From Lunularia cruciata (lineage: Eukaryota; Streptophyta; Marchantiopsida; Lunulariales; Lunulariaceae), in contig OX419756.1 of the NCBI GenBank assembly GCA_948567375.1, forward strand, positions 38,702,333 to 38,766,332: a stretch of DNA of 64,000 bases. Direction: 5' to 3'. Numbering within the stretch: position 1 is the first letter of the stretch; every line of letters begins with the position of its first letter. The notes beneath the pieces are model-generated. The model did not search any database and had not been told where the DNA came from. It saw only the letters and a program-made list of their open reading frames with translations. Below are positions 27,352 to 61,995 of the stretch, piece after piece. The position numbers were made by a program, and so were the translations under genes.

Positions 27352-28082
27352 TGTAATCTTGCAAGGATAGTAGACGTTAAGAGAAACACACAATTTCACA
27401 CTCAATCTCCGATGCCCCTAAAGGAACACCTTGACTATATTATATAGCAAAGTGGACTTCCTTGAAGGAAGCTCCACCCTTGGATCACATACATGGATTG
27501 GTGACATGTCAGCAATCTCTACCCTTAGATTAGTTGCATGCATGGGTGACATGTTGGTTCTGATCCTATATGAATGGTCAAACCTTCTTTGACCAAAGGG
27601 AATCTTTAGAGAATCTCCAAATCATGTGGGTGAGGAACCGTTGGAAAGCTCTCAATGAGACAAACTTGGGGAAGGGAGAGATAGCATTTTCTTTATTTTT
27701 TGGGGAGGGGGTGATTTGCACATTTTCAAGGTCTAATTCATCCATTTAGCCATCCAAAATTTGGCTATGAAATTTCTAGGCTATTTTTAACTTTTGCTCT
27801 ATTAGTAAAAGTCCTCTTTTGGTAACAATTCTATCTGATCTACCTTACCCATCATGTATAACATCCTTCTAGATATAACTGAGCCTATTTTCACCTTTGG
27901 ATGATATGTCTAGCTTTTGGTATTATAAATTCAAGCTATTTTTGGTTCTTGCATAATTAGTAGAAGTACTCTCTTGGTGATACCTCTATTTGATTTACCT
28001 AGCCTATCACACATAACATCATTCTACGTGTTACCAAGTTAATATCAACCTCTAGCTAATATGTCTAGCTATTGGTATTACA
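27352..28082 (-). repeat. Solo LTR 1 of the chromovirus family
   Basis: Ends are TGTAATC...GGTATTACA, with the U3 side at the right. Perfect 5-bp target duplications TTATG flank it (27347-27351 and 28083-28087). No primer-binding site or polypurine tract adjoins, so it is a solo LTR left by recombination. The body shares its segments with the LTRs listed at 33266, 36229, 37127, 38907, 53658, 60208 and 61405, for example the GGATGGGTGACATGTTGG box and the 'GGCCTAATTCATCCATTTAGGCCT'-like palindromic region. Confidence 0.9.
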
Positions 28083-30200: not shown

Positions 30201-30562
30201 GAGTCTTAGGCAATTTCATAGACAAAAATTGTGAGTTGAGAGTTGGGGATTTAAGAGATTGGATGAGCATGTGCTCAAGGTAGCTCATGATTGTCAAAAA
30301 AGGATTGTGAATAAGCATGATTTTGCTAAAGCAAAGAAGACATAGAGTGCCTCCCTAGCTGATTTTGGCATCACCTAGAGTGAGTCTTAGGCAATTTCGT
30401 CGACAAAAATTGTGAGTTGAGAGTTGGTGATTTAAGAGATTGGATGAGCATGTGCTCAAGGTAGCTCATGATTGTCACAAAAGGATTGTAAATAAGCATG
30501 ATTTTGCTATAGCAAAGAAGACATAGAGCGCCTCCCAAGCTGATTTTGGCATCACCTAGAGT
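30201..30562 (+). repeat. 181-bp tandem duplication, two copies
   Basis: Both units (30201-30381 and 30382-30562) begin GAGTCTTAGGCAATTTC and end ATCACCTAGAGTGA, with only scattered substitutions between them. The start of the following protein relic lies directly downstream, and the duplication may include its 5' flank. Confidence 0.95.
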
Positions 30563-33250
30563 GAGTAAGTGTGCACTCTATTATCAAGATGATTATATTC
30601 ATGCAAGAAGACTGGACTTATTATTGTGGAATTGGAGGTTGAGTAATCTAGACATGATAATAGAAATCAAGGACAATATGGACCTGGGACTAGAAGCATT
30701 AAGAGGTAATATATTTACTTGGACCAAGGCACATTGTCAGTGCTTGAGCTAATGGTGAAAAGTTGTCCAAAGGTGATGACCATAGACACTCTATGTGCTC
30801 ATCCCAAGGGCAAACTTCATGACAATATTGAGGTATCATTAATTGATAAGAAGTTGAGCAATGGCTGGCAATTCAGGGAGTACAGAGATCCCAAGTGGAG
30901 AATTGAGTTGGAGGTAGTCATGGAGCTCTTCAAGTCCAAAAGAATGACTTATGCCAATTTGAGCCCGATTGTCTTCTGCCATTACTTCCACAAAGGACAA
31001 CACATGAATTGTGCCAAGATATTCTATGAGTAAGTTTGTGAGATATGTGGAGATATAAATAATAAAGATGGTGTCATGCTTATGATCCTTTGTGATACAA
31101 TTTTGTATTGGTATAAAGTTGCTCACAAAGGAGGAGAAGAAGCAATTCACCACCCAGTTCTCCCCAAGGAATATTTTTGCACACACTTGAAATCAGATAT
31201 TGAGTACAAGAAGTACAAATTAGCTGATAAGAAGTATGAAAAATCAAAGAACATGTATATGCACATAGAAGAGGTCTACAACACCCCTAATTACTCACAA
31301 AAGACAAAGGAGTTTGCGGTATGACCAAAGGAGTAGGCAACAAGAGAGTGAAAAGCATACATAATCCATGACTCCTCCAAAAATACCAAGAAAAGGATGC
31401 TCACAACAACATAGAAGTAGACATTGTGTTTGAGGAAGATATCATGATGGAAGAAGATCATGACGGTGACAATGCAGAAGGAGGTATTGCAAAGACACAT
31501 TTTTGAGGGAATGAAGCAATAGGGAGTGGAGTTACAAGCCAAGGAGAGGAGAGTAAAGAATCCTTCACCCATATCAAGCTCTCCATGGACTCAAAAGCAA
31601 TGAAGATTGCCCAACAAGATTGGGTGCAATTGGCACCACCAAGAGAAGACTTGGCAAATGAAGTAGTAGAAATCCATTCACCACTAAAAGGAAAAGTGGA
31701 CCACCACAAAGTCCTATGGTGAATCATCCTTCTAGGGTGGCAACAACTATTGTAGTAATAGGAATTTACCTTTTATTTACTTTTTCTCACTAAGGGTACT
31801 AGTTTGTATAAAATATTGGGACTTTGTTTTGGAGCTAGAACTCTTCAAATCAACTTCCTCTAAGGAAGATGTTTTGTACATATAAAATGGGAAAAACCCA
31901 TTGATAGAAACTGGTGAAGAAGGAAGGACACCCTCTTTGGAAGAGTACACTCTTTTATGAAGGACTACACTTCTCTTTGGAGGATGACACTCCTTAAGGA
32001 AAGAACAAAAACTTTAGAGGACAAATGAATAGGTTTTAAAATGGATTCAAGAACACACATAACCCATGAACCTTAGGGGCTTAAAACAAGAGGAAAATTT
32101 CTTTTGAATAAGTCCCATTGCACTAAAGGAGAATGAGGAGTGTATCCTCAAGAAACCTTGTTAAGGAATTCACACTTTGGTTGTGAGCAATTCAAAAATT
32201 TGTCAAAGGATCCTTAGTTCAGTTAAGTAAGCATGATGGAATGAAGGATTGAGTGTGTAATTGGTCAAGAGAATAATTTATTTTCTATCAACATGGCTCA
32301 AAGGAATAACTTGAATTAGAAGATCCAGTTGGTTGACATTGGAAGATGGCAACACAAGCACCCCTTCTCCAAAAGCTACAATTAAGCTTTGTGTGGGAAT
32401 TGGGAGTATATCTTAGGAGCAATGGCAATGGAAATCCATATGAAGAAGGTAGTAGTATAAAGGAAAAATTGAAGGTTTGGACACCATTCCATTGGAAAAA
32501 GGTATTGGGGATTGATATTGGAGTAGCAAGCAATTTCACATTTGAGCACAAGTTTAGAATGACCAACAAGACGAAAAACCACTCATTCACAAAAAAGAAT
32601 CTGTCAAACAGACGAGTGGTGGTTGACTACAAGAATCGAAGATGATGCAAGATAGTAGGGATGTTGATGAAGATCTAAGAACACCAATGGAGCACATACT
32701 TGACCAATTCATGGCAACCTCCTTTGAGCATGTCTTCTCAAATAGTCCAACCACTTGGAGGCTTATTTTCCATGAGTATGTATAGAAGTTATATGGTGTG
32801 TTTGATGGACAAAATCCTCATTACTTGACATCCTTTGTTGTCCAATTCCACATTGGCAAGGACTTACTCATAGAGGAGGAGAAGGTGGAGTTTTCATTTC
32901 AAAAAGTGACGTAGTCTTGGCTTGAAGAAGACCCTAAAGGACTCCAGCAATTGTATCTTATGAAAGCAATCAATAGAGAGTATATGGAGAGACAAGACTA
33001 TTCATATCTCCAGTTAGAAGGATAAGAAGCAAAAGTTCAACAACTCTTCTATTTCAAAGAGAATTACACAAAAGAAACAAAAAAAGCTCTACATGATTAA
33101 AGAGTGAGAGAAGAAGGAAAATCAAAGAAGCGGACCTTCAAGAAAGCAAACCAAAGACCAATCAAGTGAGGAATCTTCATGAGGTAAACCATGAAGTTGA
33201 TTCACACAAAGAGGTCAAAGTAAAAAAACTCCAAATGAAGAAAAGGAAGG
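30563..33250 (+). pseudogene. Relic of an uncharacterised retroelement-associated protein
   Basis: A series of plus-strand fragments in changing frames reads as coding: RGNIFTWTKAHCQCLS (about 30700), ELMVKSCPKVMTIDTL, SKRMTYANLSPIVFCHYFHK (about 30940) and, near 32346-32640, VWELGVYLRSNGNG and FHWKKVLGIDIGV. I do not recognise a family. The minus-strand stretch 55088-56267 carries parallel pieces (RRNSYTWTKEQWKNVL, then KWAHMFYLQ, in the same order), so both are copies of one repeated gene. A chromovirus LTR follows directly at 33266. The function is unknown and this copy is broken. Confidence 0.5.
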
Positions 33251-33265
33251 AAGTGATAAGGATAT

Positions 33266-34005
33266 TTGAATATTCCAAGAACAAGAGAAGAGAGAAAATA
33301 CAGATTACACACTCAACATTTGGTGAGCCAAAGGAGCACCTTCTTTTTATTATATAGACAAAGAGGATATCTTCCAAGGAAGCTCCACCATAGGATTAGG
33401 CACATAGATAGGTAACATGTCATCAAGCTCCACCCTTGGATTACTTACTTGGATGGGTGACATGTTGGTCTAGGTCCTATCTGGTTGGTCAAACAAGCTT
33501 TGACCAAAGGGAATCTTCTAAGGAATCTTCTTGTAGGAGTCTTAGAATCACATGAGTAAGGTACCGTTGGAAAGCTCTTGACAAGACAAACAAGGGGTGA
33601 GGGAAGGCTAGACTTTCCTCCATCGGAGGGGGGGGCATCTGCACATTTTTGAGGCCTAATTCATCCGTTTAGGCCTCCAAAATTGCCTTCAAAGATTTCA
33701 AGCATATTTTGGTTCCTACTCTATTAGTAGAAGTCCCCTTTTGGTGATACCTCTTTTTGATCTATTTAGTCCATCATGTGTAATATCCTTCCAGATGTTA
33801 CCAAACCAATTCTCACCTTTAAATCATATGTCTAGCTATTGGTTCTAAGGTTCTCAAGTCTATTTCAGTTTCTTCTCTATTAGTAGAAGTACTCTTTTGG
33901 TGATACTTCTATCTGATCTATTTTGACCATCATGTATAACATTATTCTAGATGTTACCAAACCAAATTTCACATCTAGATCATATGGCTAGCTCGTGGTA
34001 TTACA
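33266..34005 (-). repeat. Solo LTR 2 of the chromovirus family
   Basis: The left end is a mutated form of TGTAATACTCC (TTGAATATTCC) and the right end is GGTATTACA. Flanks GATAT (33261-33265) and AATAT (34006-34010) fit a 5-bp target duplication with one change. Neither a primer-binding site nor a polypurine tract adjoins. About 740 bp, like LTR 1 and longer than the 594-bp version at 37127. Confidence 0.8.
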
Positions 34006-36080: not shown

Positions 36081-36228
36081 CACCAAATGAATGGCAAAGT
36101 GTGCTCCCTCCAAAACTTGGCGTGTGGGTTGGTTGGCTTCCTCTTCTCTATCATGTTGAACAAGGACTTCTAATCTGTAATAATTTGGAGTTAGCAAAAA
36201 TTCTAGAAGAAGCTCATGTGTTAGAAGG

Positions 36229-36823
36229 TGTAATACTCCAAGGACAAGAGAACTCCCAAGAGAAACACAAACAAGAAAACAAAAAGCTTCACATTCAATT
36301 CTCCGGTGCCCCAAAGGAGCAGCTTGTCTTTATTATATAGCAAAGAAGATCCACTTAAAAGAAGCTCCACCTTTGGATCAGATACATGGATTGGTAATAT
36401 GTTTGCAAGCTCCACCCTTAGATTAGTTGTATGGATGGTTGACATGTTGGCTTTGTCCTATCCGCTTGGTCAAATAGGTTTGACCAGAGGGAATATTTAG
36501 GGAATAATTTTATAAGAAGCTCAAATCATATGGGTGAGGTACCATTGGAAAGCTCTTTATGAGACAAAAAGCAAGGGAAGAAGGAAAGGCTTTTACCTTA
36601 GAGTCAAAGAGAATCTTTTCAATTTTGAGGCCTAATTCATGTATTTAGGCCTCTAAAATTGCCTGAAGGTTGCAAGGTGTTTTTGGCTCCTACACTATTA
36701 GTGGAAGTACTCTTTTGGTGACACCTCTAGTTGATCTACCTAGTCCATCATATATAACATCCATCCAGATGTTACCAAGCCCATTTCCACTCCTAGATAA
36801 TATTTCTAACTACTAGTATTACA
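36229..36823 (-). repeat. 3' LTR of the chromovirus
   Basis: Ends TGTAATAC...GTATTACA, 595 bp. On the minus strand it is directly preceded by the purine tract AAAGGGGGGAGG and then TT, which fixes the orientation and its role as a 3' LTR. Just upstream, the pol frame ends with the EDVAS...KGG-type tail typical of chromovirus C-termini. Confidence 0.9.
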
Positions 36824-36849
36824 AACCTCCCCCCTTTCAAGATGCAACA

Positions 36850-37071: not shown

Positions 37072-38375
37072 TATGGAAGGAAAGTGCGGTGGTTGGGCTG
37101 CATATTTGCATAGTAAGGAAACATGGTGTAATACAAGTAGCTAGACATTTATTTAGAAGTGATAATTGGCTTGGTAACATCTAGAAGGATGTTGTGTACA
37201 ATGTGCTAGGAAGATCAAACAAAGGTGTCACCAAAAGAGTACTTCTACTATTACGGCAGAAGCCAAAATAGCTTGAAAAATTTAGAGCCAATATTGGAGG
37301 CCTAAATAGATGAATTAGGCCTCAAAAATGGAAAGACTTATCCTTCAAGAGCAAAAGGCTTACCTTCCCCCACCTATGATTTGTCTCATTGAGAGCTTTC
37401 CAATAGTACCTCACCCACTCAATTTTGAGTTTCCTACAAGAAGATTCTATAAAGATTCCCTTTAGTCAAACCCATTTGACCAACTAGATGGGACAAAGAT
37501 TAACATGTCACCCATCCAAAAAACTAATCCAAGGATAGAGCTTGCGGACAAGTCACCAATCCATGTATCTACTCAAAGGTGGATCTTCCTTTGAGTGGAT
37601 CTTCTTTGCTATATAATAAATAGTAGGTGCTCCTTTGGGGCATTAGAGTATTGAATGTGAAACTTGCATTTTCTCTCTTTAATCTCTCTTGGAGAGAGCT
37701 CTTGTCCTTTTAGTATTACACATAGAACATTGGATGGATCTTCATGTGTGGCGGTATCTTGAGGTAGTGGGCCACTATACCAATTTTTTGAAGGATAGAA
37801 AAAGGGCAAAAAAAACAGATTCCACCTTACGAGGGCCAACTAATGTGAGGTTGGTTGTGTACAACTAGACTTGATCCTCAACATTGAACTCCATGTTCCA
37901 ATGATGTGCATTTGCATATTGTTTCTAGCAATTTTGGGCAATTTGCAACCTATGCATGGCATTCTCCACACCCTCTTGGATTCTAGAAACAAAGTGTTGA
38001 CAACATCAACCTTGGTCAAGTTCTTGTATGGAAGGAAAGTGCAATGGTCGGGATGCATATCTTCATAGTAAAGAAACATGGAACATTGGATAGATCTTCG
38101 TGTGTGGTGGTAACTCAATGTGGTAGGCCGTTGTACCAATTAGATGAAGGATGAAAAAAGGCCCAATAAAATGGATCTAAGCTTACAAAGGCCAACTCAT
38201 GTGAGGTTGGTTGTGGACAACTAGACTTGATCTCCAACATTGAATTTCATGTGCCAATGATGTATATTTGCATATTTTTTTTGGAAATTTTGGTCAACTT
38301 GCAACCCATGCTTGGCATTCTTCACACCATGTTGGATTCTAAAAACAAAAGTGTTAACGTCAACCTTGGTAGCCA
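37072..38375 (-). repeat. Tandem duplication (about 355 bp) of the integrase C-terminal region, one unit carrying an LTR
   Basis: Unit 1 runs from TATGGAAGG at 37072 to about 38026 and includes a 594-bp LTR. Unit 2 runs from TATGGAAGG at 38027 to about 38375. Without the LTR the period is about 355 bp. Shared landmarks include ACAACTAGACTTGATC (37860 and 38217) and the GGTTGGTTGTG box. On the minus strand both encode the integrase C-terminal domain, e.g. KFNVGDQV leading to a histidine- and proline-rich stretch. The unit without the LTR preserves the empty target site. Confidence 0.85.
37127..37720 (+). repeat. Solo LTR 4, inserted into the duplicated integrase region
   Basis: TGTAATACAAGTAGCTAG...TAGTATTACA, 594 bp, oriented opposite to its host. 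Flanks CATGG (37122-37126) and CATAG (37721-37725) are a 5-bp target duplication with one transition. The second tandem unit shows the uninterrupted site (AAACATGGAACATTGG near 38079-38096), a direct proof of insertion after the duplication. Confidence 0.92.
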
Positions 38376-38442: not shown

Positions 38443-38906
38443 GACCTATGTGGATGTAATCACTAAATTGTTGTAGGAAAATTCCACTAGTGGAAGTAAG
38501 GTATCCCACCTCTCTTGCTCACTTAAGGTGAAGCCCTAGAGCATGTTCTTAATAGTGTGATTAGCCTTCTTTATTTTTCCATCAATTTGTGGATGGTAAG
38601 TTGGAGACATGGCTAGTTTGGTTTTGAAGACACCAAAGAGTTTTTGAAAAATAAATGAGTGAATTGAATGCCTTTATCTATGATAAGCACTCAAGATAGG
38701 CCATGGTGAGAAAAGACTACATCTTAGTACAATTGAGCTAATTATGGAGCAGTCACATCTTTGGTAGTAGGACACACATGAATCATTTTGCTAAGTTGGT
38801 TGACAAAGAATACAATGGAGTCAAACTAACCCTAAGGTAGTTTTGGGTAATTCACAAATCAGATGCATGCTTGCTTGTTCTTAATGTTGTGTAGGAGTAG
38901 GGAGGG
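38443..38906 (-). pseudogene. Chromovirus integrase core
   Basis: Minus-strand pieces FDSIVFFVNQLSKMIHVCPT (first catalytic Asp region, family 'YD.I.VVVD..SKM.HF.P') and VLIIDKGIQFTHLFFK (second Asp, family 'SD.G..F.S.FW') are clear. The frame is interrupted by stops. At 38906 the sequence is cut by an LTR insertion. The upstream part of the same integrase resumes at 49362, beyond 10.5 kb of nested insertions. Confidence 0.85.
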
Positions 38907-39236
38907 TGTAATACCAATAGCTAGATATATTATCTAGAGGTGAAAATTGGCTTTGTAATATTTGAAAGGATTTTATGTATGATGTGCTAGATAGATCAGA
39001 TAGAGGTGTCACCAAAAGAGTACTTTTACTAATAGGGTAGGAGCCAAAAATAACATGAGAACTTTAGAGCTACTTTTGGAGACCTAAATGGATGAATTAG
39101 GCCTCAAAATATATAGTTTCATTTCTCCAAGGTGTCGTGCGTATATACATCGCTACAAAATATATATTGCTGTCAACATCATACACTATAGAAGCACAAC
39201 TCACACATAAATCATACATAGACTCTAAAGTGCCAC

Positions 39237-39687
39237 AATAATCAGATTTCTTACCACTCTCAACTCAACTCAACTCAGATCAGTACTTGATTTGTCACTC
39301 TATAAAATGCCAACAACTGGGCACTGATTATAGTCAAGCCACACCCACTCAAGCATAGAGAATCCAGGTGACGCTTGCCGGCCTCTGTCCACCATAGCCG
39401 GGAACTCGAAGGCTCAACATCAAAGAAGTGAGCTCTTTGGAGCTCACTTCGAAACTATACCCCCTGGACTTGAGCTAGCACTAAAACCCTAACGGTCCCG
39501 CTGACGGCACACTTGACGGTGTGAACGGTGCAAAGTGACAGTGGGCCCCACCATGAAGTCAGTACCCCAAACACAAAATCTGACCATCGGAAAGCAGTCC
39601 TTGAAAAACTGCTGAAATAACTCTAACTACTATCATTGGAACTCCAGTGTCCGAGCATCTAGATGCGGAACTACAAATGGCATGACA
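39237..39687 (-). repeat. 3' LTR of the methyltransferase element
   Basis: On the minus strand it starts TGTCATGCC and corresponds base for base to 48540-48990 over about 450 bp. By eye roughly 90% identical. A 107-bp direct repeat flanks it on both sides (39133-39239 and 39690-39796) and is absent beside the 5' LTR. The purine tract CTAGGGGGGCG (39797-39807, minus) precedes the inner copy. The true LTR boundary at this end is therefore ambiguous. Confidence 0.85.
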
Positions 39688-39689
39688 AC

Positions 39690-39796
39690 TGTCGTGCGTG
39701 TATACATTGCTACACAACATACATCGTTGTCAACATCATACACTATAGAAGCACAACTCACACATAAGTCATACATAGACTCTAAAATGCCACAAT
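39690..39796. repeat. 107-bp direct repeat beside the 3' LTR (inner copy; outer copy 39133-39239)
   Basis: Both copies begin TGTCGTGCGT and end GCCACAAT, sharing CATACACTATAGAAGCACAA. They differ at about ten positions. The inner copy lies between the polypurine-like tract and the LTR; the outer copy forms the external end of the element. Possible explanations are a composite or tandem LTR, or transduction of 3' flanking sequence. Confidence 0.9.
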
Positions 39797-39963
39797 CGCC
39801 CCCCTAGCTGGCGGTTAGATCCCTCTAACTCCAGATAGCCATCTACTTTAAGTATATGGTATACCCTCTAATGGGCAAAGATCAGGAGGCCGGGTGCTAT
39901 GGAGCCCCATCGTTAGTTGCCTGTCTACAATCTATACCATATCAAGAATGAACTAGCTATAGG
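39797..39963 (-). other. 3' untranslated region with polypurine tract of the methyltransferase element
   Basis: Lies between the integrase/PHD stop codon at 39964 and the 107-bp repeat. The minus strand carries CTAGGGGGGCG just before the repeat, a good polypurine tract candidate for plus-strand priming. Nothing else is recognised. Confidence 0.6.
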
Positions 39964-40188
39964 TCAAGTACATCTAGGACATAGCCACTGTCCCTGAGGA
40001 ACCACCATGAGGGGAGGAGTCATACATGCCATATGCCATCCTCTCAAACAACTATCACACACTAACATAGTAGCAGCTCCACCAAAAGAGCCACATAACA
40101 TACTCCTCAAGCCTGCACGTACAAGTGCCAAGCTTGGGTCCATAGTACCATCAATGTTTGGGAGGTGGCATGGTGCACAATTGCGCAC
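39964..40188 (-). pseudogene. PHD-type zinc finger at the C-terminus of the gypsy integrase
   Basis: The end of the pol product reads VRAGLRSMLCGSFGG, then MLVCDSCLRGWHMACM and TPPLMVVPQGQWLCPRC, then Thr and the stop. This is the PHD pattern C-x2-C, C-x2-C, H-x2-C, C-x2-C, with TPPL and G-x-W-x-C-P-x-C as in canonical PHD fingers. The first Cys is Ser here (AGT at 40102-40104, one base from TGT). The preceding segment (CAPCHLPNIDG) follows the integrase GPY/F-like module. PHD fingers usually bind the H3 tail; a targeting role, like that of a chromodomain, is inference. The open frame starts at a non-ATG codon because it is an internal part of a polyprotein. Confidence 0.8.
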
Positions 40189-40395
40189 ATGATCCCTTCA
40201 AAGAACACCATCACGTCCTTCTAACACAAGGACTCCAGATGGCAAAACCTCACGCACTCTCAAGATAGTGCGGCCTGTAGAAACATCAAGTGTCGTCAGT
40301 GTTGTCTGTTGTAGATATACATAGTTGCCTAGATGAAATCGACGGATCGAGGGTCTATAACCTCCTCCTTGAATGGTAGCATAGCGTAAAGTATC

Positions 40396-41216
40396 TCAAT
40401 GCTGAGCAATTGCCAAGTTCTCAAAGGCCATCGGCATCACTCTCCGAAAGATCTCTGCCCGTTGAGAACATGCGCTCATCCATACATTGGGGTCATCCAA
40501 GTCCAAAACTACAGTAGCATCTAGATGAATGGCTGCAATTAAATGTGGATCTTGTCCATAGAGTAGAATTATGGAGAGAAGGATGCTAAGGAGGCTTGCC
40601 GGCTGAACCGATAGCCCATGGCCAACCAAGGTAATTGGAGATCCCAATCTCCCAAGTGGCCTCTCTGCAAACCATACTTTTGCAATCCTCTCTTCACCGT
40701 CTAAACCACTCTCTCTACTAAGCCATCTGCCTCAAGGTGATCTCGAGATGTAGTACGATGATCAATCAAAGCCTTGTCACACAAGACCTAAAACTCCCCC
40801 AAGAACTCTGTACCCTGATCAGTCAAAACCTCAGTTGGTGCACCAAAATGACTAAGAACTCAATCCAAGAACAAGTAAGTTGTCCCTTCACTAGACTTGT
40901 CAGGAAGTTCCACCAACTCAATCCACTTGGAGAAGTGCTCCACCATCACCAAAACATACCGATAATGTCTCACAGTCAGCGGTAAAGTCTCGGAAAAGTC
41001 CAAACTCCAACGGTAACCCAATCCCATGATAGGTAATAGGTGTAACTATGGCATAGGAGCATTGAATGATGCTCTAACTTGGTCACAAACCACACATCTG
41101 GTAACAAACTGCTGTACCTCGGTTTGCATACCGTGCCACCAATAATGACTCTAGAGTAAGCTATATGTATGCTTTACTCCAAAATGTCCTAGCTCCTCAT
41201 AAGCATGACAGACCAA
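40396..41216 (-). pseudogene. Integrase of the methyltransferase element
   Basis: From upstream: a zinc region with H-x4-H (ELGHFGVKH) and C-x2-C (TRCVVC) near 41090-41190. The catalytic core follows: Asp in WSLDFSE (about 40990-41010), Asp in VLTDQGTEF (about 40803-40830) and Glu in DGLVERVVQTVK (about 40700-40734), the D,D-E triad of retroviral-type integrases. The stretch YGQDPHLIAA and the 83-codon open frame 40396-40647 follow as the core end and linker. Stops occur where homologues would have Arg or Gln. The frame differs from that of reverse transcriptase, so at least one frameshift lies between 41666 and 40647. Confidence 0.85.
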
Positions 41217-41660
41217 CTATGGTCTCTGTGATGGAAGTGGTACTTCTTGCACTCTACCATCCTCCCATACACGCAAAAGGTGTCCACACTCCAATCTGAA
41301 CCGTCTGGCTTGCTGAAGAACACGGTCTCTCTCCTTGGCCCCAACTGTGCCACCTACAACACCAGTGCAAAGATAGTCCATCACTAAGACATCGTCATGA
41401 ATGTCTCGCTGAATTGTACCAATATCCTCACTCTCTGGATCTGTGACCTCAATAACTCCTCCTGTATGCGCTAAGAGAGATACCACCAAAGCCTTTGCAA
41501 ATATACACAGGCCAATGCATGCCAACCTGGCACCATCTCCTCATCTGTCTCACCATGCCAACGTGCTCTGGTTTGATTCCGCTGGCTTGGACATGGGTTT
41601 CTACTCAACCCATCTGCATCACGGTTCACCACTCCAAGCTTGTGAACAATTGTGAAATCA
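41217..41660 (-). pseudogene. RNase H to integrase linker
   Basis: The open frame 41217-41525 (102 codons) reads FAKALVVSLLAHTGGVIEVT then ARRFRLECGHLLRVWEDGRV, equivalent to the variable tether before the integrase zinc region. Upstream of it, at 41530-41660, pieces DADGLSRNPC-like complete the RNase H end ('N..ADALSR'). No enzyme motif lies in it. Length and position are as in other gypsy elements. Confidence 0.6.
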
Positions 41661-41665
41661 TACTC

Positions 41666-42900
41666 CTATAAAATCAGAGCCCATCGTGCAAGCTTCCTTG
41701 AAAGCTTGTCGGACTCCATCAACCACTTCAACGGCTGATGATCAGTGATGAGAGTGAAGGGGTTACCAAATAGGTAATATCGGAAATGTGCTACTGCCCA
41801 AACTGCTACCAAGCACTCTCCCTCATATGAACTATACTTTGCCTCCATTGAACTGTTGGAGCGACTAGCATAGGCCACCACAAACTCCTTCTCCTCATCA
41901 TCATGTTGGGTGAGCACTACTCCAAGCCCCAACATACTCCAATCAGTGTGAACCTGAAATGGTCATCCCCTGATCGGTCTCCTCAAAATAGAAGTAGATG
42001 TCAACCTCTCCTTGAGCTCTACAAAAGCTCTCCCTTGCTCATCTCCCCAACACCACTCCTGTGTAAGCTTGGTCAGCTTCATCAAGGCCTTGGCAATGGC
42101 ACTAAATCCTCTAACATAGCGGCGATAGAAGTTTGCCAACCCAAGGAATGCTTGCACTTTGCTCACATCCGTAGGCCAAGGAATACGTGCAATAGCCTCC
42201 ACCTTGGTCTGCTGAACACCAAGTTCTCCGGGGTAGATAGTGTGACCCAAATACTCAACCTGCTCGTGGAAGAACCTACACTTCCCAGGATGTAATTTGA
42301 GTCCATGAGATCTCAACCTCTCAAACACCTCCAACAACTATCTCTCATGCTCCTCCACAGTAGTGCTATAAACCAAAATGTCATCAATATAGCACCGAGC
42401 AAAATCCAATCCAGCTAGGATCCTATCTATGACCCTCTTGAACTCAGCAGGAGCATTCTTCAACCCAAATGGTAAGAACCTCCACTGATATAACACATCC
42501 TTACTGTGAGGATCAATAGCCCAAAATGTTGTCTTGGACTTATCCTCCTCCTTGATTGGCAATTGATGATATCCCGCTTGAAGATCCAAAGTACTGAAGA
42601 CCTTTGCATGCCCAATCGCATCAAAAATCTCCTCCGCTGTAGGCATGGCATACTGATCAGCCCTGGTTTGTCAGTTGATAGGACGGTAATCTCCACACAT
42701 CCGCCTATCTGTATAGTTGCCATGCATATCCTTCTTGGCTGGCATCACTGTCACTGATGCATACTCTCCATGTGAAATCTCCACCAAACCAGCCACAAAA
42801 AAGTCACTACTTTGACTCTGAATCAATGTCCTCTCCATATCACTATATCGATAAGGATGTCAAAAAACTGGTGTGTTGCTAGTCAGCTCAATCCATATAC
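41666..42900 (-). pseudogene. Reverse transcriptase and RNase H of the methyltransferase element
   Basis: Motifs in order on the minus strand: HPYRYSDMER (about 42850), PAKKDMHGN and CGDYRPIN (about 42700), FSTLDLQAGYHQLPIKEEDK, FGLKNAPAEFKRVIDRIL, the catalytic box CYIDDILVYS (about 42380), LHPGKCRFF and VEYLGHTI, AFLGLANFYRRYV, then RNase H with HTDWSMLGLGVVL, YASRSNSSMEAKYSSYEGEC and FTLITDHQPLKWLM. Every standard gypsy motif is present, and YIDD replaces YVDD as in many plant elements. Stops at 42860, 42671, 42338, 41963 and 41666 interrupt an otherwise single frame shared with the upstream methyltransferase. Confidence 0.95.
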
Positions 42901-43390
42901 CAGGTCCCTTCAAAGCACCCAAATCCTTCATACTGAAGGCAAAACAACTCGTGTGACTCCTCAAGAACCTCCAAACCCTCCGTCTTTCCTCTCCAATAAG
43001 CTTGGGTCCAAGATCTGGCTCCCAAGTATCCTCTGTAACTGTAGTAGGAGTGGAAGACGTACTGATTGGCTGTTACACTGGGCCCTTGGGAGCAATAGTG
43101 TCATGCTCCCGATCACTAGAGGTCCCAACCTCTGTGTGAAAAAGTCCCTCCACTCTGGCTGCAAGCTCCACACGTCCTCTAGCTGCATCCCATGTGGACC
43201 AAGGGTGTAATCCAAGTAGCCCACGCTCACATGGATGGACTCCAAGTAGACCACTCTCCCTAGTAGCTACTTGATGTGTCCCAAGAATACCATGTCCACT
43301 CGGTCCATCGCCCCCAGCATGTGCCTGAATTGTCTTGATAGGCACAGGGCTCACAAGTGTCCAAGTGGTGATGCCTATCAAGCGCCTCCT
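42901..43390 (-). pseudogene. Spacer between methyltransferase and reverse transcriptase
   Basis: In frame with both neighbours. It reads as Gly/His/Leu-rich low-complexity repeats (GLLGVHPCERGLLGLHP) and then an acidic stretch. It has no enzyme motif. One TAA lies at 43073-43075. It probably acts as a flexible linker or contains a protease cleavage region; this is not shown. Confidence 0.6.
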
Positions 43391-44370
43391 ACGTTGCTCT
43401 ACCAAGCCAAGGCTCACAATCCAGGTCAAACAGTTCAGGTCCATAACCTGACCTAACACCTGACGCCTGGATGCCTCTGACAATGTTGGAACAACAGTAA
43501 TACCGGTGCAAAAACCCATCACCCGCTCTCTCTCATCAGCATTGGGCTCCACCAACTATTGTAATTGTGAGTCCCAAACAAGTCCAAGTCCTCTCTCTCA
43601 AAAAGCATGAGAGCCTGGGAAACTCATGAGTGTGGGAAATGCAGCTCTATGCTGTCCAACTAGGTTCACCACTGCCAAAGGTGACCTATCAGCCACTACC
43701 ACTGTCTGAGACTGACGCCCAACATCCAAGATATCATCAACAAGGATGTGGTCAAGTTGCTGAATCCCATCATAAGCACGTTGTAGAACCTCTCTTGGTA
43801 AGAGGTTTGTCCACCAAAGACGAAGACGATGAGCTCGTGATCCCACTCTGGCTACATCTAACAATACAGCAGGTCCCATCCAAGAATGGACCTGATGTGT
43901 ACTTGCCACCACTCTAGTGCAAGAATCACCCATCAAGGGAACGTTCTCCAAAAGGTAAGCTGGAGAAACAGACTGATGAACCTGGAGATGTTGTAGTATC
44001 CATAACATCTCCCAAAACACACCAGAACAAGGATATTGAAGACCCAAACCGCGGCCCGCATGTGTATGTCCCTAACATGGCCATCCATAAATCACCAAGT
44101 GAATAGGCCCATGTCTCTCTAGGTCATGCGCCCCCAGTAAGGAAATGTCTCCTAGTAGGGCCTTCTGGTAACCTCTGACTGTTGACATTGGTAATAACTC
44201 TGGATACCGATAGGCCAAGTGTGCCACATGATGTAGAGTGACTCGCCTAGCAGTCTCATCTCTCTCTACATACAAGTACCTCTGTACTTGGATACCCGAC
44301 TGTAACACCGCAACTAGTCTGGTGCTGATCCTACCAAACAACTCCAATAGGCATATCTCCTCTATTGGAT
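43390..44370 (-). pseudogene. C5 cytosine DNA methyltransferase domain in a gypsy pol frame
   Basis: Motifs in conventional, unpermuted order. Motif I ICLLELFGRISTRL (44317-44362) with the S-adenosylmethionine loop partly degraded (family F-G-G-I/x-G-T-G). Motif II acidic YLYVERDETARR. Motif III-like GDISLL. Motif IV VIYGWPC (44075-44095), Cys being the catalytic nucleophile, followed by a TAG at the usual Gln. Motif VI YLLENVP (43922-43962). Motif VIII SRAHRLRLWW (43813-43853). Motif IX/X region DERERVMGF (43505-43547) and LGQVMDLN (43390-43470). The family methylates C5 of cytosine in DNA. Three stops (44072, 43598, 43556) break this copy. DRM-type permutation is excluded by the motif order. 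The closest plant clade is undetermined. Confidence 0.85.
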
Positions 44371-44947
44371 ACTGCCAAGCAATGAGTGTGGTATCCAGAG
44401 GTGTCAAAGCAATCACCTCTGGAGGCTCATCCTCACACTCATCTCCTGATGGTACGAAGGCTCCACTCCAAGCCTGCTGCACCAACTGATCTACATGTTG
44501 CTGCAATACCTCCTCTGAACTCCACAATGGAACATCCAAGGTGGATGGAACAATCCCACTCGTACTCCATAGCCAAGTGATCTCCTTTGGTACTGGAGTA
44601 TCCTCTGCATGGGCGTTCTCCTCCAACAAGTCACCAAGCCAAGTAACTGCACCGCTGAAAGCTAAAACTGATGCTGCCATGGTCCCGGACTGTAGTGAGC
44701 CAAGACTGCCACTACTGAAGCGTACTGGTAGGTGACATATCCGTCCCTCACTAGACTTCCAACCAGGTCTATAAGAGGCTGTCTCCTCCCAATAGTCAAT
44801 GTTGAAACCCATAGGGTATAACACTGCTTCCCCAACTAGCACATCATATGACTCAGCTATCGTTGCAATAGCCCGAGCTCTCACCACCGAGCTATCAGTC
44901 GGATCACCAGGCTGAACCTAGACAACAAGCTCTCCACGTGTGATGTT
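44371..44947 (-). pseudogene. Uncharacterised domain between protease and methyltransferase
   Basis: An open stretch of the same frame (part of 44072-44887) precedes motif I. It includes YPMGFNIDYWEETASYRPGW, SGAVTWLGDLLEE, a Trp-rich piece (KEITWLWS) and an acidic segment ending DECEDEPPE. I do not recognise a domain. Position suggests an N-terminal extension of the methyltransferase or a linker after protease. Confidence 0.5.
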
Positions 44948-45577
44948 CTATGTCAAACCACCACCAAGAGATGTCTGGATCTGAAATGGACACCTCTCCA
45001 CATCGGTCTTCCATAACTCCAGACCAACAGCTGTAGCCTTCCCCAACATAAGGGGTTGCGCACCAGAGTCTAACAAGACTCTCTGTGGTGTATAGACCTT
45101 CCCTGAAGGTCCCACCAAACAAAAAATCCCCCTCTGGTTATCCAATAGGACAACACCAGGTGTAAACCGTGCTCTCTCAAAGGCCGGTCTAGTTGGCAAC
45201 TCCTCTAGTCTAGCCGCTGCTGCCTGCCATAAACCACTGGTCGCTGAATGGATCCCATGCTCCTCAACCAAGTCAACTCCACTACCAACCACCTCTAGTC
45301 TAGTAGTAAGAACTGCACCATCCCTACTCTCACACAATGTGGCAGCCAACCTGAATACTGGGGTTGGGTCAACTCCCAATGTAAACATGTCACTTGCTGA
45401 AAACAAAGGATGCTGCATAACCAGCTGAGCCGCCCCCAACATCATGCTAGACTCAGTCTGTGTAGTAGTAGGTGGCTGACTAGCAGGTAGTCCATCATGT
45501 ACTCCATCACCACCTACCACACCTGCACTTGGACGCCTAGGAACCATGGATGTTGTCTGCAATGCCTCAGATAGCAT
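44948..45577 (-). pseudogene. Retroviral-type aspartic protease and N-terminal linker
   Basis: The catalytic flap-side motif VLLDSGAQPLMLGK (about 45040-45085) matches retroviral-type proteases ('hDSGAs'), followed by VGLELWKTD in the position of the usual second hydrophobic strand. It is preceded by about 130 residues of Ser/Thr/Pro-rich linker starting after the zinc knuckles. The 209-codon open frame is in phase with reverse transcriptase and methyltransferase. The active Asp is intact. Confidence 0.8.
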
Positions 45578-45598
45578 GAAAGACTGGGGAAGTCTGAC

Positions 45599-46162
45599 CT
45601 ATCTCCCAACCTCTCCTCTTTGTGGTTCCAACTCCATTGATGCTCCTCTAGGCTTTGGAGCAAGTACTGCACTCCTAGTCACTGCTGCAGATGCATCCAC
45701 CTGTGCTGCTCCACACATGAAGTCCAAAGCATCTCTATCACCAGCATATGAGGTGGAAGCCTCTGCACCCAAATCTGATCTCCTTTGAGCAATAGCCATA
45801 CTAGCCAATCTTTGCTCCAATTGCTCAATCCAAGAAGCCATAGTTGTGTCAGAACTAAGGGCAGGTATTACACCCCTACTAGGTGTAGATCCTCTACCAC
45901 CACCTCTACCACCTCGTCCTCCATGAACTGGAGCTCGTCTACTACCTACCATAGCAGCCCTACCACTCCGTAACTTTGGGTGTAGGTCAAAACACCGGTC
46001 ACTAATGTGACCAAATCTGTGGCAGTGCTCACACTGCCTCTGTGATGGCTGTGATGCACTAGAGGTATCAGGTTCGCTGCCCTGATTACACTCTCTCCGA
46101 TGGTGAGGTCTACTACAAGTCCAACAAGCAACACCACCACTCACTAGTTGCTGCTGACCCAA
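45599..46162 (-). pseudogene. Gag nucleocapsid with CCHC zinc knuckles
   Basis: Two knuckles: CWTCSRPHHRREC, an imperfect spacing of C-x2-C-x3/4-H-x3/4-C, and CEHCHRFGHISDRC, a perfect C-x2-C-x4-H-x4-C. An Arg/Gly-rich basic run (GGRGGRGGGRG) follows, typical of nucleic-acid binding. Nucleocapsid packages the element's RNA. The frame matches the downstream pol. Confidence 0.85.
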
Positions 46163-46167
46163 AAATG

Positions 46168-47340
46168 AGGGTAAGGATCTAACTCCACTAGGCCCTCCAC
46201 TCGCTCCATAGGATTTGGGTTGTCCACCCTGTCCTCAAAAACCAACTAGGCGTGGTGCACTCTGCTACACTCGAGAAGAAGTCACAACCCTGGATGAGGT
46301 CTCCCTACCAAATCCAGATGTCACCACTCTCTCCTCCACCTATTGTGCTCAATACGCTCAGCCAAACCAAAGACTACTGCCAAAGTGGGCGAAGTAGCCT
46401 GCAACAACGTAGCATCACAAACTCTACGTCCCAACTCCTTGTCCAGTATCCCATACCAAAACTGGATTGCCTAGGCCTCAGTAACTCCCTAAGTGAAACT
46501 GATCAGCCGCTTCATGCAAGTGTATGCCTCGCGTAGGCTCTCTCCAGCCTTCTGCTGGAACTCTTGCAAGCTCCTCAGCTTGTCAGTCCGCACTCCTTGG
46601 TAGTTCTGCCTCAAACATAGGAAGAACTCCACCATGGGGTTAAACCCCGGTACCACACCACCTCTTGTAGCGGTGCTTCCACTCGTAGTAGCACTATCTC
46701 TAGCTAGTGCACCTCCACTAGCTCCACCCACACTACTCGAGCTAGAACTCGTAGGTCCAGCCGATCTACTCCTGGCCACCAAGCTTGAAGTGATGGAGAC
46801 ATAGTGTGGAGACCAATATTGTCTCCATAACTCAATCTCCTCCAAATGAGCTCTCCTGAACTCATGGTAGTCATCCATCGGCGGACCCTCTAAGTGCTGA
46901 AACAACCCCTTCCATGCCATGAAGGGTGTGAACAAAGTCAGGTTCTGATCTGCTGCAGATCACACCAACTATCGAACTCCTGGATGAAGTCATCCAACTC
47001 AATGGTACCCACTATACCAAAGTAACGCCTAGGGCCTTTGGAGGCCCCATAAATCTTGTTGATGTCCCACAACAACGGTGCGGACACACCAAGTGCACTC
47101 TCAACTGAATCAGCTCTTGTGTCGAACTCCAACTCAGAGTCAATCTCCTTCCTCACTAGGACTTGAGATACCGAGCTGATACCAAGCACCACTCCAAGTA
47201 AACCCACTGCGTATTGCAGTGCTAACTCCTTTGGAATCTCCAAAGAACTCCGTCATGACCAAGTAATTGCAACAGCAAACCCCAACCGCAAGTTGCAACC
47301 GCAAGTGCCCCACCAAGTGCCAACACCAACTAAACACCAC
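46168..47340 (-). pseudogene. Gag capsid region of the methyltransferase element
   Basis: Two open stretches (46938-47243 and 46489-46935) separated by a one-base frameshift near 46935. The downstream one includes GLFQHLEGPPMDDYHEFRRA and FFLCLRQNYQGVRTDKLRSL, the 'F...L.Q' retrotransposon gag core, and 46168-46488 continues with AIQFWYGILDKEL. Downstream stops lie at the ends of each piece. Capsid assembly is the family role. The N-terminal initiation codon is not certain. Confidence 0.75.
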
Positions 47341-48539
47341 CCACTAATGTAACTCTAACCGAGATAACTACACTAGGGGAAAGGGCAACCTGTAACCTGC
47401 CATCATAACACGCACTCTCACGGTCTACAGATCATCACTTCCTACTTCACTGGAGAGAAACAAAGGTAATCTAACTAGTCATCACTCCAGCCTCACCACC
47501 AAGAGCACACCAGAGCACCAATGCTCAAAAGGCAGGGTACCTCACACAAACGTGGTGCACAAACAAGAAGCAGAGAATGGAGGAGATCCAATCACAAAAA
47601 ATCTAAACAAAAACCCTCCATCTCATAACACAACATGGGACTGACTCTGCCACCATTTGGCATTTGACATAAGAGAAGTTCGTATCTAAGTCCTAAACTA
47701 CGAAGATCACCAATAATGGGATCAAACTGCCTCTCCTAGCCAAAGCTACATGTGTATAAATAACAGTGGCATAGTCACTAGGACAACAAGTGAGGGTGGA
47801 CCAGTTGGCTAGGGCACCAGTCTAGGAACAAGAGATCTAGGGGTCAAACCTTGTTGCGCACAATCTAGCAGGAAAGGCAGATTTTGCCAACCAATGACCA
47901 AGATCTACTCTAAACTAGCTAGCTTCTAGGCCTTCGTAGCCTCTCATAGCCCATAGCCCTATGCCTCAAAGCCTCAAAATTCAGCCAAATGATGCCTTTC
48001 TTGTTGCCACTTTGAACCTCCTCCAAAATTGGTGAAACTTCTCCAAATCTGCGAAACTCTTCCAAACTAGCAAAACTCCTCCATATCTGGCCAAAATCTG
48101 ACGTAAATCCCAACCAAAATCTGACATAAAATTGACATAAACCCTAAAGATGGTTGTCCCCCAAATCCCTTGCTAACTTTCAATTCGAGCCAAATTGACA
48201 ACACAAGTTTTTCCAAATCACAAATTCATGAGAAGAGCTTCCCAACTCCACCTTCAATTTGACTTTCTAAACCCAACTTGCAGCAAATTGGTCCTGCCTT
48301 CACCTCTTGAGCTCAAAATCACAACCACTGCTTGAAAATTGCTCCTTCTTTGCTCAAAATTTGGCCAGCACTTCCGCACACCATCCAACTAACTGCCAAA
48401 TCTGCATCAAATGAATGAGCTTCTATACACTAGGGAAACACTGAACTTGAATCGAGCTACCAACGATCCACCGAGCTTGGAGATACCACCAACACTCAAA
48501 GTTCCTGCACCCGGTTTCCCCCTGACTTCACTTCTCTGA
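47341..48539 (-). other. 5' leader of the methyltransferase element
   Basis: About 1.2 kb between the gag start and the 5' LTR without long open frames. The minus strand reads ATCAGAG right after the LTR end (near 48539), seven bases shared with the initiator-Met tRNA primer-binding site (TGGTATCAGAGC), whose first part is missing. This is a weak primer-site candidate. No packaging signal can be inferred. Confidence 0.5.
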
Positions 48540-48990
48540 TGTAATCAGATTGCTTACCACTCTCAACTCAACTCAACTCAGATCAATACTTGATCTGTCA
48601 CTCTATAAACTGCCAACAACTGGGCACTGATTACAATCAAGCCACACCCACTCAAGCATAGAGAATCCAAGTGATGCTTGCCGGCCTCTATCCACCATAG
48701 CCAGGAACTCAAAGGGTCAACATCAGAGAAGTGAGCTCTCTTGAGCTCACTTTGAAACTATACCCCCTGGACTTGAGCTAGCACTAAAACCCTAACGGTC
48801 CCGCTGATGGCACACTCGACGGTGCAAATGGTGCAAAGTGACAATGAGCCCCACCGTGAAGTCAATACCCCAAACACAAAATCTGACCGTCAAAAAGCAG
48901 TCCCCAAGAAACTGCTGAAATAACTCTAACTACTATCATTGGAACTCTAGTGTTAGAGTATCTAGATGGGGAATTACAAATGGTGTGACA
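48540..48990 (-). repeat. 5' LTR of the methyltransferase element
   Basis: On the minus strand starts TGTCACACC and ends GATTACA (TG...CA). It lies directly inside the right half of LTR 5. About 90% identical by eye to 39237-39687, most differences being transitions. Confidence 0.9.
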
Positions 48991-49361
48991 AAGGAAGACT
49001 AGGCTGGCCTTCCTTCCCTTATGTATCTTGTCAAGAGCTTTCTAACAATATCTCACCCACATAATTATAAGATTCCTATAGGAAGATTCTCTAAAGATTC
49101 CCTTTGGTCAAAGATTGTTTGACCAACCAGTAGGATCAAAACCAACATGTCACCCATGCATGCAACTAATCTAAAGGTAGAACTTACTAACATGTCACCT
49201 ATCCATGTATCTTATGTAAGGGTAGAGCTTCCTTTGGGAGAATCCTCTTTGCTATCTAATAAAGTCAAGGTGCTCCTTTGGGACATCAGAGTATTGAGTG
49301 TGAAGCTTGATGTGTCTTCTCTTGTGTTTTGCTTAAGGTCCCCTATCCTTGGAAGATTACA

Positions 49362-49806: not shown

Positions 49807-49839
49807 TCTCTACTTTACCTACTCTAGGTAAAGTAGAGA
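49807..49839. repeat. Perfect 14-bp hairpin at the duplication junction
   Basis: TCTCTACTTTACCT and its reverse complement flank ACTCT. It sits exactly where the first unit of the 353-bp tandem duplication starts, so it may have promoted slippage. Confidence 0.85.
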
Positions 49840-50530
49840 TAATAGGGAGGCCTAATTTTGTGTGTCTTGAGATAACCTAGAGATTTGTGGTGTGTCTCCA
49901 CTACAAATGATTTCTTGTTAAGGTAGTACTTCTAATGCTTGGTTGCAAGAACAATGGTCAACTTTTTTTGTTAAGCAATGTGATAGTTATGTTTTGCCAA
50001 GAATTTGGACTGCTCTTTGTTTGGGATTGTTCTTTTTGCAAATCTTGATGCAATTATAGCCAACTTGATTGGATGTTTTAGGTCATACCATTTCAAGATT
50101 GGTGCATGTAGTAATGTACCTTTCAATTCCTAAAAGGCCAATTCTTGTGTGGTTCCTTACATCCACTTCTTCCCCTAAGGGTAAAGTAGAGACAATAGAG
50201 AGGCCTAATTTTTTGGTCTTGAGATAACCTAGAGGTTTGTAGTATATCTCCATTACAAATGCCTTGTTGCTAAGATAGTACTTCTAATGCTTGGTTGCAA
50301 GAACAATGGTCAACTCTTTTTGTTAAGCGGTGTGATAGTTATGTTTTGCCAAGAATTAGGACTGCTCTTTGTTGTAGAATTGCTCTTATTGCAACTCTTG
50401 ATGCAGTCATAGCCAACTTGATTGGATGTTTTAGGTTATACCAATTTGAGATTGGTGTATGTAGTAATGTATCTTTCATTTCCTAAAAGGCAAATTCTTG
50501 TGTCGCTCCTTACATCTACTTCTTCCTATT
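49827..50530 (-). repeat. 353-bp tandem duplication in the chromovirus RNase H region
   Basis: Both units begin GGTAAAGTAGAGA (49827 and 50180) and share CTTGGTTGCAAGAACAATGG and AGCCAACTTGATTGGATG at the same offset. Unit 2 ends near 50530. The minus strand here is the reverse transcriptase to RNase H junction, but no clean frame remains. Confidence 0.9.
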
Positions 50531-53657: not shown

Positions 53658-54245
53658 TCTAGTACTCCAAGGACAATAGACCCCCAAGAGAAACACAAGC
53701 AAGAAAACACAAAGCTTCACACTCAATACTACGGTACACCAATGGAGCACCTTGTCTTGATTATATAGCAAGAAGGATCCCTTTAAAGGAAGCTCTACCC
53801 TTAGATTAGATATTTGGATTGGTGACATGTCAATGAGCTCCACCTGTAGATTAGTTGCATGGATGGGTGACATGTTGGTGCTTGTCTTATCTGGTTTGTC
53901 AAAATAGTTTGACAAGAAAGAATCTTTAGGGTATCTTCTTGTAAGAATCTCAAAATTACATGGGTGAGGTACCATTGGAAGCTTGAGACAAAGTGAGGGA
54001 AGAAGGCAAGCCTCTTCCTCTAAAGGGGAAAAATGCCTCCATTTTTTAGGCCTAATTCATCCATTTAGGTATCTAGAATTGGGCTTGAATTTTTCAAGGT
54101 ATATTTGACTCATGCCCTATTAGTGGATGTACTCTTTTGGTGACACACCTATCTTATATACTTAGTCCATCATATATAACATCCTTCTAGATGTTACCAA
54201 ATCATTTTCCACCTCTAGGTAATATGTCTAGCTATTGGTATTATA
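53658..54245 (-). repeat. 5' LTR of the chromovirus
   Basis: 588 bp, same family as 36229-36823 in the same orientation. The left boundary is the mutated terminus TCTAGTACTCC; the right boundary ends GGTATTATA (from GGTATTACA). The adjoining primer-binding site proves it is a 5' LTR. The right flank is GTAGA. Confidence 0.85.
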
Positions 54246-59430: not shown

Positions 59431-60207
59431 CAACCATCTTTCCAAAGATGAGTTACCAAAAATTTTAAGATGAGAAGACAAAGAAGATCCATATACATTC
59501 ATCAAGGAGTTTCAGTCTATTACAATAGCAAATAAAGGAGATAATGATGCTCATAATTCTGAATAGTTCCTACTCTATTGAGAAAAAAAACCAAGGAGTT
59601 GGTATACTCAAGCAAGCTAGACTTTGATCCATGTAGCAAGTTGTGCAATAGTAAAACAAGGATGTATTGATTGATTTATGTAACTTGATTAGAGGCCAAT
59701 GTATTTTCCACATGAAATAATTTAGAACCAAATTGGAAGGAGAGATTGTGTGATTACACAAAATACTACTTTTGGTCTCACTACATAATGAATTTCTACT
59801 TGAGTGTTGAAAGAGAGAGGATTTGGGAAATTCACATCCATAACATCATAATAGAATTTAGATTGTCAAATCCCACTCTCTATTGTATCCCACTACAGGT
59901 AGAATCACCAGGTTTGGTGAGCTCATCACCTTGTTTATGAATTTTACTCCAAAGTGATAAATTATAAATACTCTCATTTGCTCACCATAGATATACATAA
60001 CCTTGATGTGGAATGGATTCAAGAATGGAAACCTAGGTATGGGAAATTGTCCTCCCGATGCATCCATTCCATCTACTCTCTAAAGTCCTTCCTAAGTCTT
60101 GCAATTACTCTATGTTCTCCACCTCAAATCACTCAATTTCAGTAGTTAGTGTTCTTCCATGAGGAGTGATCCACTCTCTTGGACTAAAACACTTGCTTTG
60201 ATCCCAT
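59430..60207 (-). other. Leader of another minus-strand chromovirus copy
   Basis: The primer-binding site TGGGATCAAAGC (60206-60195, minus) matches 10 of 12 positions of TGGTATCAGAGC. The adjacent GTGGATCACTCCTCATGGA segment is also present at 53590-53625. The rest of that element's coding region is not found intact to the left: the copy is truncated or diverged. Confidence 0.75.
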
Positions 60208-61990: not shown

Positions 61991-61995
61991 ATAAT

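Follow-up and report, generated by a model that had tools for sequence, protein, structure and literature searches.

A decayed gypsy-type retrotransposon of a liverwort carries a DNMT3-class cytosine methyltransferase domain ahead of a putative readthrough stop codon

We analyzed a stretch of 64,000 nucleotides from the liverwort Lunularia cruciata (GCA_948567375.1, contig OX419756.1, forward-strand positions 38,702,333 to 38,766,332; hereafter the window), in which a single inserted element of 9,858 bp occupies positions 39133 to 48990 on the minus strand. We consider it likely that this element is the decayed remnant of a long-standing streptophyte gypsy lineage that carries its own DNMT3-class cytosine methyltransferase domain, and that such elements would combine readthrough of a stop codon with methylation of their own complementary DNA (cDNA). 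An initial annotation of the window had proposed a cytosine-C5 DNA methyltransferase within the pol region of a gypsy retrotransposon.

The methyltransferase domain lies at 43316 to 44419 on the minus strand, bounds that were set with a profile of the window copy and six relatives, and contains three internal stops. As the initial annotation had claimed, C5-methyltransferase motifs I to X follow each other in unpermuted order, in the minus-strand frame running from 44917 to 43076. When the pieces of this frame were searched singly against Pfam, no match was obtained even at an expectation value (E) of 1, which we ascribe to the insensitivity of short, decayed queries. With X placed at the stops, the domain matched PF00145 at E = 0.0022 and DNMT3A chains at 4.8e-08; the predicted resemblance to Pfam's DNA_methylase family was thus recovered for the joined domain but not for its pieces, and short of Pfam's cut-off. 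The best protein relatives reach up to 68% identity (E = 2.5e-149) and, judged on sequence, the methyltransferase match is far beyond chance. Among methyltransferase classes with solved structures DNMT3 is the nearest, with DNMT3 chains at 8.4e-11 versus 0.009 for DNMT2 in a structure-chain comparison, and with DRM chains aligning to the first half of the domain only. The fold predicted for the closest relative of the window domain is also DNMT3-like. Element DNMTs are like human DNMT3A and DNMT3B in motif order, catalytic residues and predicted fold but differ from them in overall sequence (22 to 26% identity in structural alignments, for that closest relative). Their polyprotein ends, well away from the DNMT, in a PHD finger, and neither ADD nor PWWP domains were found in the 24 relatives scanned for domains. 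Across 84 aligned relatives, 60 columns are at least 90% conserved, and the window agrees at 54, differs at 5 and has a stop at 1. It keeps the catalytic Cys, the Glu of ENV and both Arg of R-x-R, which are present in 79/80, 84/84, and 77/82 and 79/81 of the aligned relatives, respectively. We assign the methyltransferase to the DNMT3 class on the strength of its sequence, the order of its motifs and the fold predicted for its nearest relative.

The rest of the element was interpreted with the help of a relative. A scan of genome contigs returned 7 loci in 162 stretches, six from Streptomyces/Saccharothrix and one full relative, L055 (CADCWO010000201.1), an open retrotransposon of eukaryotic type with 52.3% G+C. 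Its contig is deposited as part of a cyanobacterial genome but most likely comes from an alga or plant and was binned in error. On the minus strand, the window element encodes, in order, gag, zinc knuckle, protease, DNMT, reverse transcriptase (RT), RNase H, integrase and PHD finger. The gag fragment (46492 to 46959) and the aspartic-protease-like region (44951 to 45136) are weak by Pfam (PF03732 at E = 0.066 and PF13650 at E = 0.14), and their identification depends mainly on alignment to relatives: tblastn aligns 46659 to 46498 to L055 with 31% identity (E = 3e-06), and the protease motif LDSGAQ recurs in open reading frame (ORF) 1 of L055. The zinc-knuckle region (45602 to 46234), which shares the frame of the DNMT, was recognized by eye from its Cys/His pattern and by tblastn from 46132, and had no match in a Pfam search. 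Downstream of the DNMT come an interrupted RT (41966 to 42670; PF00078, E = 1.5e-18 and 1.7e-05), RNase H (41669 to 41962; PF17917, E = 1.2e-32), an integrase region in a shifted frame (40572 to 41498; 58% identity to L055 ORF2 526-834 by tblastn) and a C-terminal PHD finger (39967 to 40197; PF00628, E = 4.1e-10). With L055 proteins as tblastn queries the frame is constant from 46132 to 41498, in keeping with the single frame from zinc knuckle to RNase H that had been noted initially, and changes twice thereafter. The order protease-RT-RNase H-integrase, with an RT nearest to Ty3, is that of Ty3/gypsy pol. Among the best 60 of 265 matches in the PDB, the top match of the L055 RT is Ty3 (6.7e-100), that of the L055 integrase is prototype foamy virus (PFV; 3.3e-19), and the L055 PHD finger resembles those of PHF12, UHRF1, CHD4 and KDM5. 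The integrase is seen as Pfam rve and H2C2 families in relatives and by homology to L055 in the window, and it stands in place of the tyrosine recombinase of DIRS elements. Searching the window for Rfam families at the gathering threshold and for tRNA genes gave no matches. The window copy is a decayed, broken element.

The limits of the element were established by an empty-site alignment. Its flanks (38905 to 39132 and 48995 to 49330), when rejoined minus one AAGG, align over the joint to seven other in-window copies of an interrupted repeat of ~600 bp, with 73 to 78% identity; owing to gaps in these alignments near the joint, the element ends are accurate to a few bases. The element has the termini TGTC...GACA and is bordered by a 4-bp target-site duplication, AAGG, read at its two edges (39129 to 39132 and 48991 to 48994), which together with the empty site indicates an integrase-type insertion. 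Two direct repeats, both on the minus strand, are split in a DIRS-like order, A1 ... B1-A2-B2. Repeat A1 (48542 to 48990) forms the 5' end and is 91.1% identical over 449 bp to A2 (39239 to 39687), with a Kimura two-parameter distance of 0.097, whereas the 107-bp B1 (39690 to 39796) is 91.6% identical to B2 (39133 to 39239, its last base common to A2), which forms the 3' end. B1 begins immediately past a polypurine-tract-like GCTAGGGGGG (39799 to 39808, minus strand), and the B1/A2 junction GACA-NN-TGTC (39684 to 39693, minus strand) joins both element ends. L055 has an identical tract at 6936 and the same junction motif, at a spacing of 115 bp that is exactly that of the window element; base counting gives a chance expectation for the motif of about one per 64 kb, so the matching place carries weight. 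Tract and junction are the only part of the layout comparable in L055, whose sequence stops before A1 and shows no second B end. The window element does not have the two complete, alike terminal repeats of a plain long terminal repeat (LTR) element but the split form. We also considered a reading with plain LTRs of 450 bp, in which the 107-bp unit past the 3' copy would be host sequence or left over from a tandem array; the empty-site alignment instead places this unit inside the element. The interrupted ~600-bp repeat is itself dispersed: a span of 35 kb holds eight or more copies, in both orientations and about 72 to 86% alike, at 27379-28082, 33266-34003, 36228-36831, 37125-37721, 53660-54243, 60207-60959, 61407-61991 and in the copy split by the element.

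The repeats also bear probable traces of methylation. Of the 450 sites aligned between A1 and A2, 40 are unlike, mostly through transitions (34), and the C/G sites that changed amount to 10/27 in CG, 10/46 in CHG and 14/148 in CHH context (Fisher p = 0.0007 for CG vs CHH and 0.039 for CHG vs CHH). From this pattern we infer that the insertion has been methylated in CG and CHG, as is usual in plant hosts. Such traces are neutral on self-methylation, speaking neither for nor against it. The element as a whole is not distinct in its CpG observed/expected ratio (0.33, versus 0.35 for window sequence outside it).

How widespread are such elements? Two protein searches, with 44 and 67 matches, yielded 95 distinct clusters, all of which (95/95) match the domain profile; in the 67-match search scoring was confined to the 8000 candidates with most common words, and the clusters come from more than one assembly and are not counted loci. 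The domain is therefore not a one-off insertion, so that the outcome which the initial annotation had named as fatal to its proposal did not occur. For 28 of the 95 an organism is named: Marchantia (22), Sphagnum (3), Calypogeia (2) and Closterium sp. NIES-54 (1). Klebsormidium and vascular plants are absent from these 28, no search having been aimed at vascular plants. Since liverworts and peat mosses have relatives of the element as well as an alga, a phenomenon known from algae extends to land plants. That the element's own host is a land plant, as initially supposed, was confirmed with a SnRK1 (AMPK alpha) gene of about ten exons on the minus strand of the window (~17800 to 13101): over residues 290-520 of the protein, assembled by eye, this C-terminal part is 87% identical to M. 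polymorpha, 67% to Calypogeia fissa and at most 53% to others among the best 120 of 440 matches, which identifies the host as a liverwort near M. polymorpha yet distinct from that species, in line with either a further Marchantia or an allied thalloid genus. We then built a DNMT tree of 85 rows (the window, 83 relatives and a human DNMT3A fragment as outgroup, with 12 short relatives dropped), the rooting of which rests on that one human fragment and which does not include host DNMT3 sequences. The window belongs to a clade of 27 rows (100/100) containing all the named liverwort and moss rows of the tree; the L055 DNMT is 47.8% identical to that of the window. Three rows, P0043, P0092 and P0094, are very divergent and sit on long branches, and P0043 (29% identity) may come from a different family of retroelements or from a gene of the host. 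In viral contigs, a search with relative P0005 as the query found no relative; one with the alignment found 54 loci in 96 stretches, with 24 to 53% identity and mostly over short parts, which we read instead as ordinary phage or bacterial C5 methyltransferases.

A further feature of the window's lineage is an in-frame stop codon between DNMT and RT. In L055 a single frame comprises 1162 open codons (gag, zinc knuckles, protease and DNMT; 5' end open), one UAG and 1047 open codons from RT to PHD finger. The UAG is set in AAG UAG CAA UCA, and at the homologous place the window has a UAA in GUG UAA CAG CCA (43073 to 43075, minus strand). Both fit CARYYA, which follows 14 of 7907 stop triplets on both strands of the window and L055, and which is the tobamovirus readthrough consensus, described as effective on UAA too (PMC3542737). 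The stop context is thus shared with tobamovirus replicase readthrough (UAG-CARYYA); the putative readthrough stop here parts Gag-protease-DNMT from RT. Among 26 relatives of the window's clade and P0039, a pattern HPWxxW occurs after the DNMT in 12, nine of which end 32 to 39 residues later, compared with 38 in the window; P0046 has a variant pattern and a similar end, and other clade members have no pattern match. From these sequences, the window stop looks ancestral rather than a product of decay. In L055, the RNA past the stop is strongly structured (z = -4.64), which supports readthrough there. We conclude that in the window's large clade RT is probably translated by readthrough. Since the DNMT lies upstream of a conserved in-frame stop, it is in this clade part of the Gag-protease ORF and not of pol proper, and would probably be made at Gag level. 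The proposed location inside pol holds in that the DNMT is a domain of an element with a gypsy-type pol, and needs correcting in that the domain precedes the stop.

Other relatives have the DNMT elsewhere. Domain order was scanned in 24 of the 95 relatives, with DNMT places taken from the domain profile. The DNMT stands before RT/RNase H or next after the protease in P0019, P0050, P0053, P0074, P0094, P0079, P0020 and P0072, and likewise in L055, which is additional to the 24, and after RNase H in P0077, P0087, P0091 and P0040, the first of which is a single protein of 1649 residues with RT, RNase H, DNMT, integrase and PHD. Eight more (P0078, P0081, P0084, P0088, P0089, P0090, P0095 and P0038) have the DNMT directly before the integrase with no RT between and presumably share the order RNase H-DNMT-integrase. 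P0073, P0045, P0047 and P0075 are ambiguous; in P0075 Pfam finds only an integrase after the DNMT, yet the intervening sequence resembles the start of an RT. Of the 12 relatives with the second order, 11 are in the DNMT tree and all of them fall in one 16-row clade (99/99), the remaining five rows being outside the domain-order scan. An RT tree of 10 rows concurs with the DNMT tree on the main groups, P0077 + P0087 + P0091 (91/89) and L055 + window + P0050 + P0019 (97/98), with P0079 (Closterium) placed, on weak support (77/84), towards the first of these groups. It includes no DNMT-less gypsy element, so a single capture is beyond its reach. The two architectures and the separate second DNMT clade would also be accounted for if DNMT3 genes of hosts had been captured twice, instead of once with a later move. 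We regard this as possible but doubtful, given the many conserved columns common to both kinds of DNMT, the PHD finger that ends the pols of both, and the RT groups that mirror the DNMT groups. Domain shuffling has a precedent in the two orders that coexist in the DIRS-Dnmt3 elements of Symbiodinium (PMC5890265).

What would such an enzyme do? Ribosomes would mostly halt at the stop, making Gag-protease-DNMT the main product, and occasional readthrough would add RT-RNase H-integrase-PHD, so that particles would contain roughly as much DNMT as Gag. Either inside the particle or in the pre-integration complex, the enzyme would methylate newly made double-stranded cDNA ahead of integration, and the integrase would insert the methylated cDNA, perhaps guided by the PHD finger. 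The gain for the element may be camouflage in a methylated genome or self-limitation. Methylation of cDNA is suggested by the place and conservation of the DNMT, by the CG methylation in yeast described for SymbioDIRS domains and by the proposal, already made in 2018, that such an element methylates its own copies (PMC5890265). Possible but more tentative is the full version, in which the stop is leaky in the tobamovirus manner, the DNMT is made at Gag stoichiometry, the cDNA is inserted CG-methylated and a sister branch moved the DNMT beside the integrase.

Several observations weigh against this scenario. The window copy is degraded, with the three stops in the DNMT, further stops in the RT and two frame changes in ORF2, and the motif-I glycine of its DNMT is altered in the conserved-column alignment. 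The case for readthrough is built on two DNA sequences, the window and L055, and past the window stop the RNA folds no better than shuffles (z = +0.77); reinitiation rather than readthrough may supply RT. After HPWxxW, P0004 ends after 18 residues, and P0047 and P0075 continue for 120 and 295, a run-on into RT-like sequence that may be a gene-model effect. P0074, P0079 and P0094 have DNMT and RT in one protein with no stop. Finally, the domain of KnitGypsy-Dnmt3 from Klebsormidium nitens produced no methylation in yeast, a result its authors called inconclusive (PMC5890265).

The DNMT might instead act in trans, on host chromatin or genes, to counter silencing or disturb the methylome. A product made at Gag level could exit the particle, and the PDB matches of the L055 PHD finger include UHRF1, KDM5 and PHF12. 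These three proteins are readers of histone H3. Host-wide effects in Symbiodinium have been discussed as well (PMC5890265). We nevertheless find this unlikely: enclosure of the DNMT in a polyprotein with protease and RT favors action in the particle, and a de novo methylase would be an odd counter-silencer where the host silences by methylation. Less probable still is that the domain was retained for nucleic-acid binding or, like DNMT2, for RNA methylation. The fold class is common to DNMT2, RNA methylation has been raised for a LINE type, and the inactivity of KnitGypsy-Dnmt3 on yeast DNA would fit (PMC5890265), but the catalytic Cys, Glu and Arg are kept at the frequencies given above and DNMT3 chains match far better than DNMT2 chains. 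As for a dead passenger, in which a methyltransferase gene had landed just once in a gypsy element undergoing decay, the three stops of the window DNMT would suit it, but we give it hardly any credence: the 95 relatives carrying the domain refute it, and the long open frames of L055 and the agreement of DNMT and RT trees also speak against it.

The suggested precedent from charophytes and dinoflagellates proved to be real. For Klebsormidium, de Mendoza et al. reported in 2018 gypsy elements that bear a DNMT3 and have DIRS-like repeats (PMC5890265). KnitGypsy-Dnmt3, which we compared by description and not by sequence, shares with the window element a DNMT3 domain inside a gypsy polyprotein and, per the Fig. 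4 legend, DIRS-arranged repeats, but its host is an alga and ours a land plant. Its description in the text mentions no readthrough, PHD finger or second DNMT position, although figures may show the order, and the main text of that article names no Marchantia, moss, Sphagnum or Physcomitrella. SymbioDIRS-Dnmt3 is likewise a DIRS-type element bearing a DNMT3, but it uses a tyrosine recombinase, in contrast to the integrase and Ty3-type RT of the window's family. The same distinction applies to PAT/Ngaro, which has the split direct repeat layout A1-B1-A2-B2 (PMC4157794) and a tyrosine recombinase, whereas the window element encodes an integrase and is flanked by a 4-bp duplication. A 2025 article mentions retrotransposon DNMT3 in streptophytes, citing the 2018 work (PMC12344493). 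We found no report of bryophyte DNMT-bearing retrotransposons among the top-ranked matches in the open-licence PMC literature, and none from a liverwort or moss in the text sections of PMC6453930, PMC10952607, PMC8616336, PMC10538959, PMC9861306 and PMC11244446. Within the open literature searched, both the bryophyte members with an empty site and the putative leaky stop look new.

Elsewhere in the window, a polygalacturonase (GH28) gene of several exons lies at 5888 to 9798 on the minus strand (PF00295 at 7.9e-20 for one exon), and there are two-copy tandem duplications at 49827-50526 (period 353 bp) and 30201-30566 (period 181 bp).

These findings bear on how retrotransposons of this type are viewed in plants. 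Such transposons have been said to be absent from land plants, such as tracheophytes (PMC6338049), a statement that, for bryophytes, is contradicted by proteins annotated in Marchantia, Calypogeia and Sphagnum. If the proposed mechanism is true, an element of this lineage would determine its own epigenetic state, with many DNMT copies per particle, and the leaky stop gives a specific, checkable prediction on enzyme dose. Marchantia being a laboratory plant, the benefit of a retrotransposon-borne DNMT would become testable in a tractable land plant.
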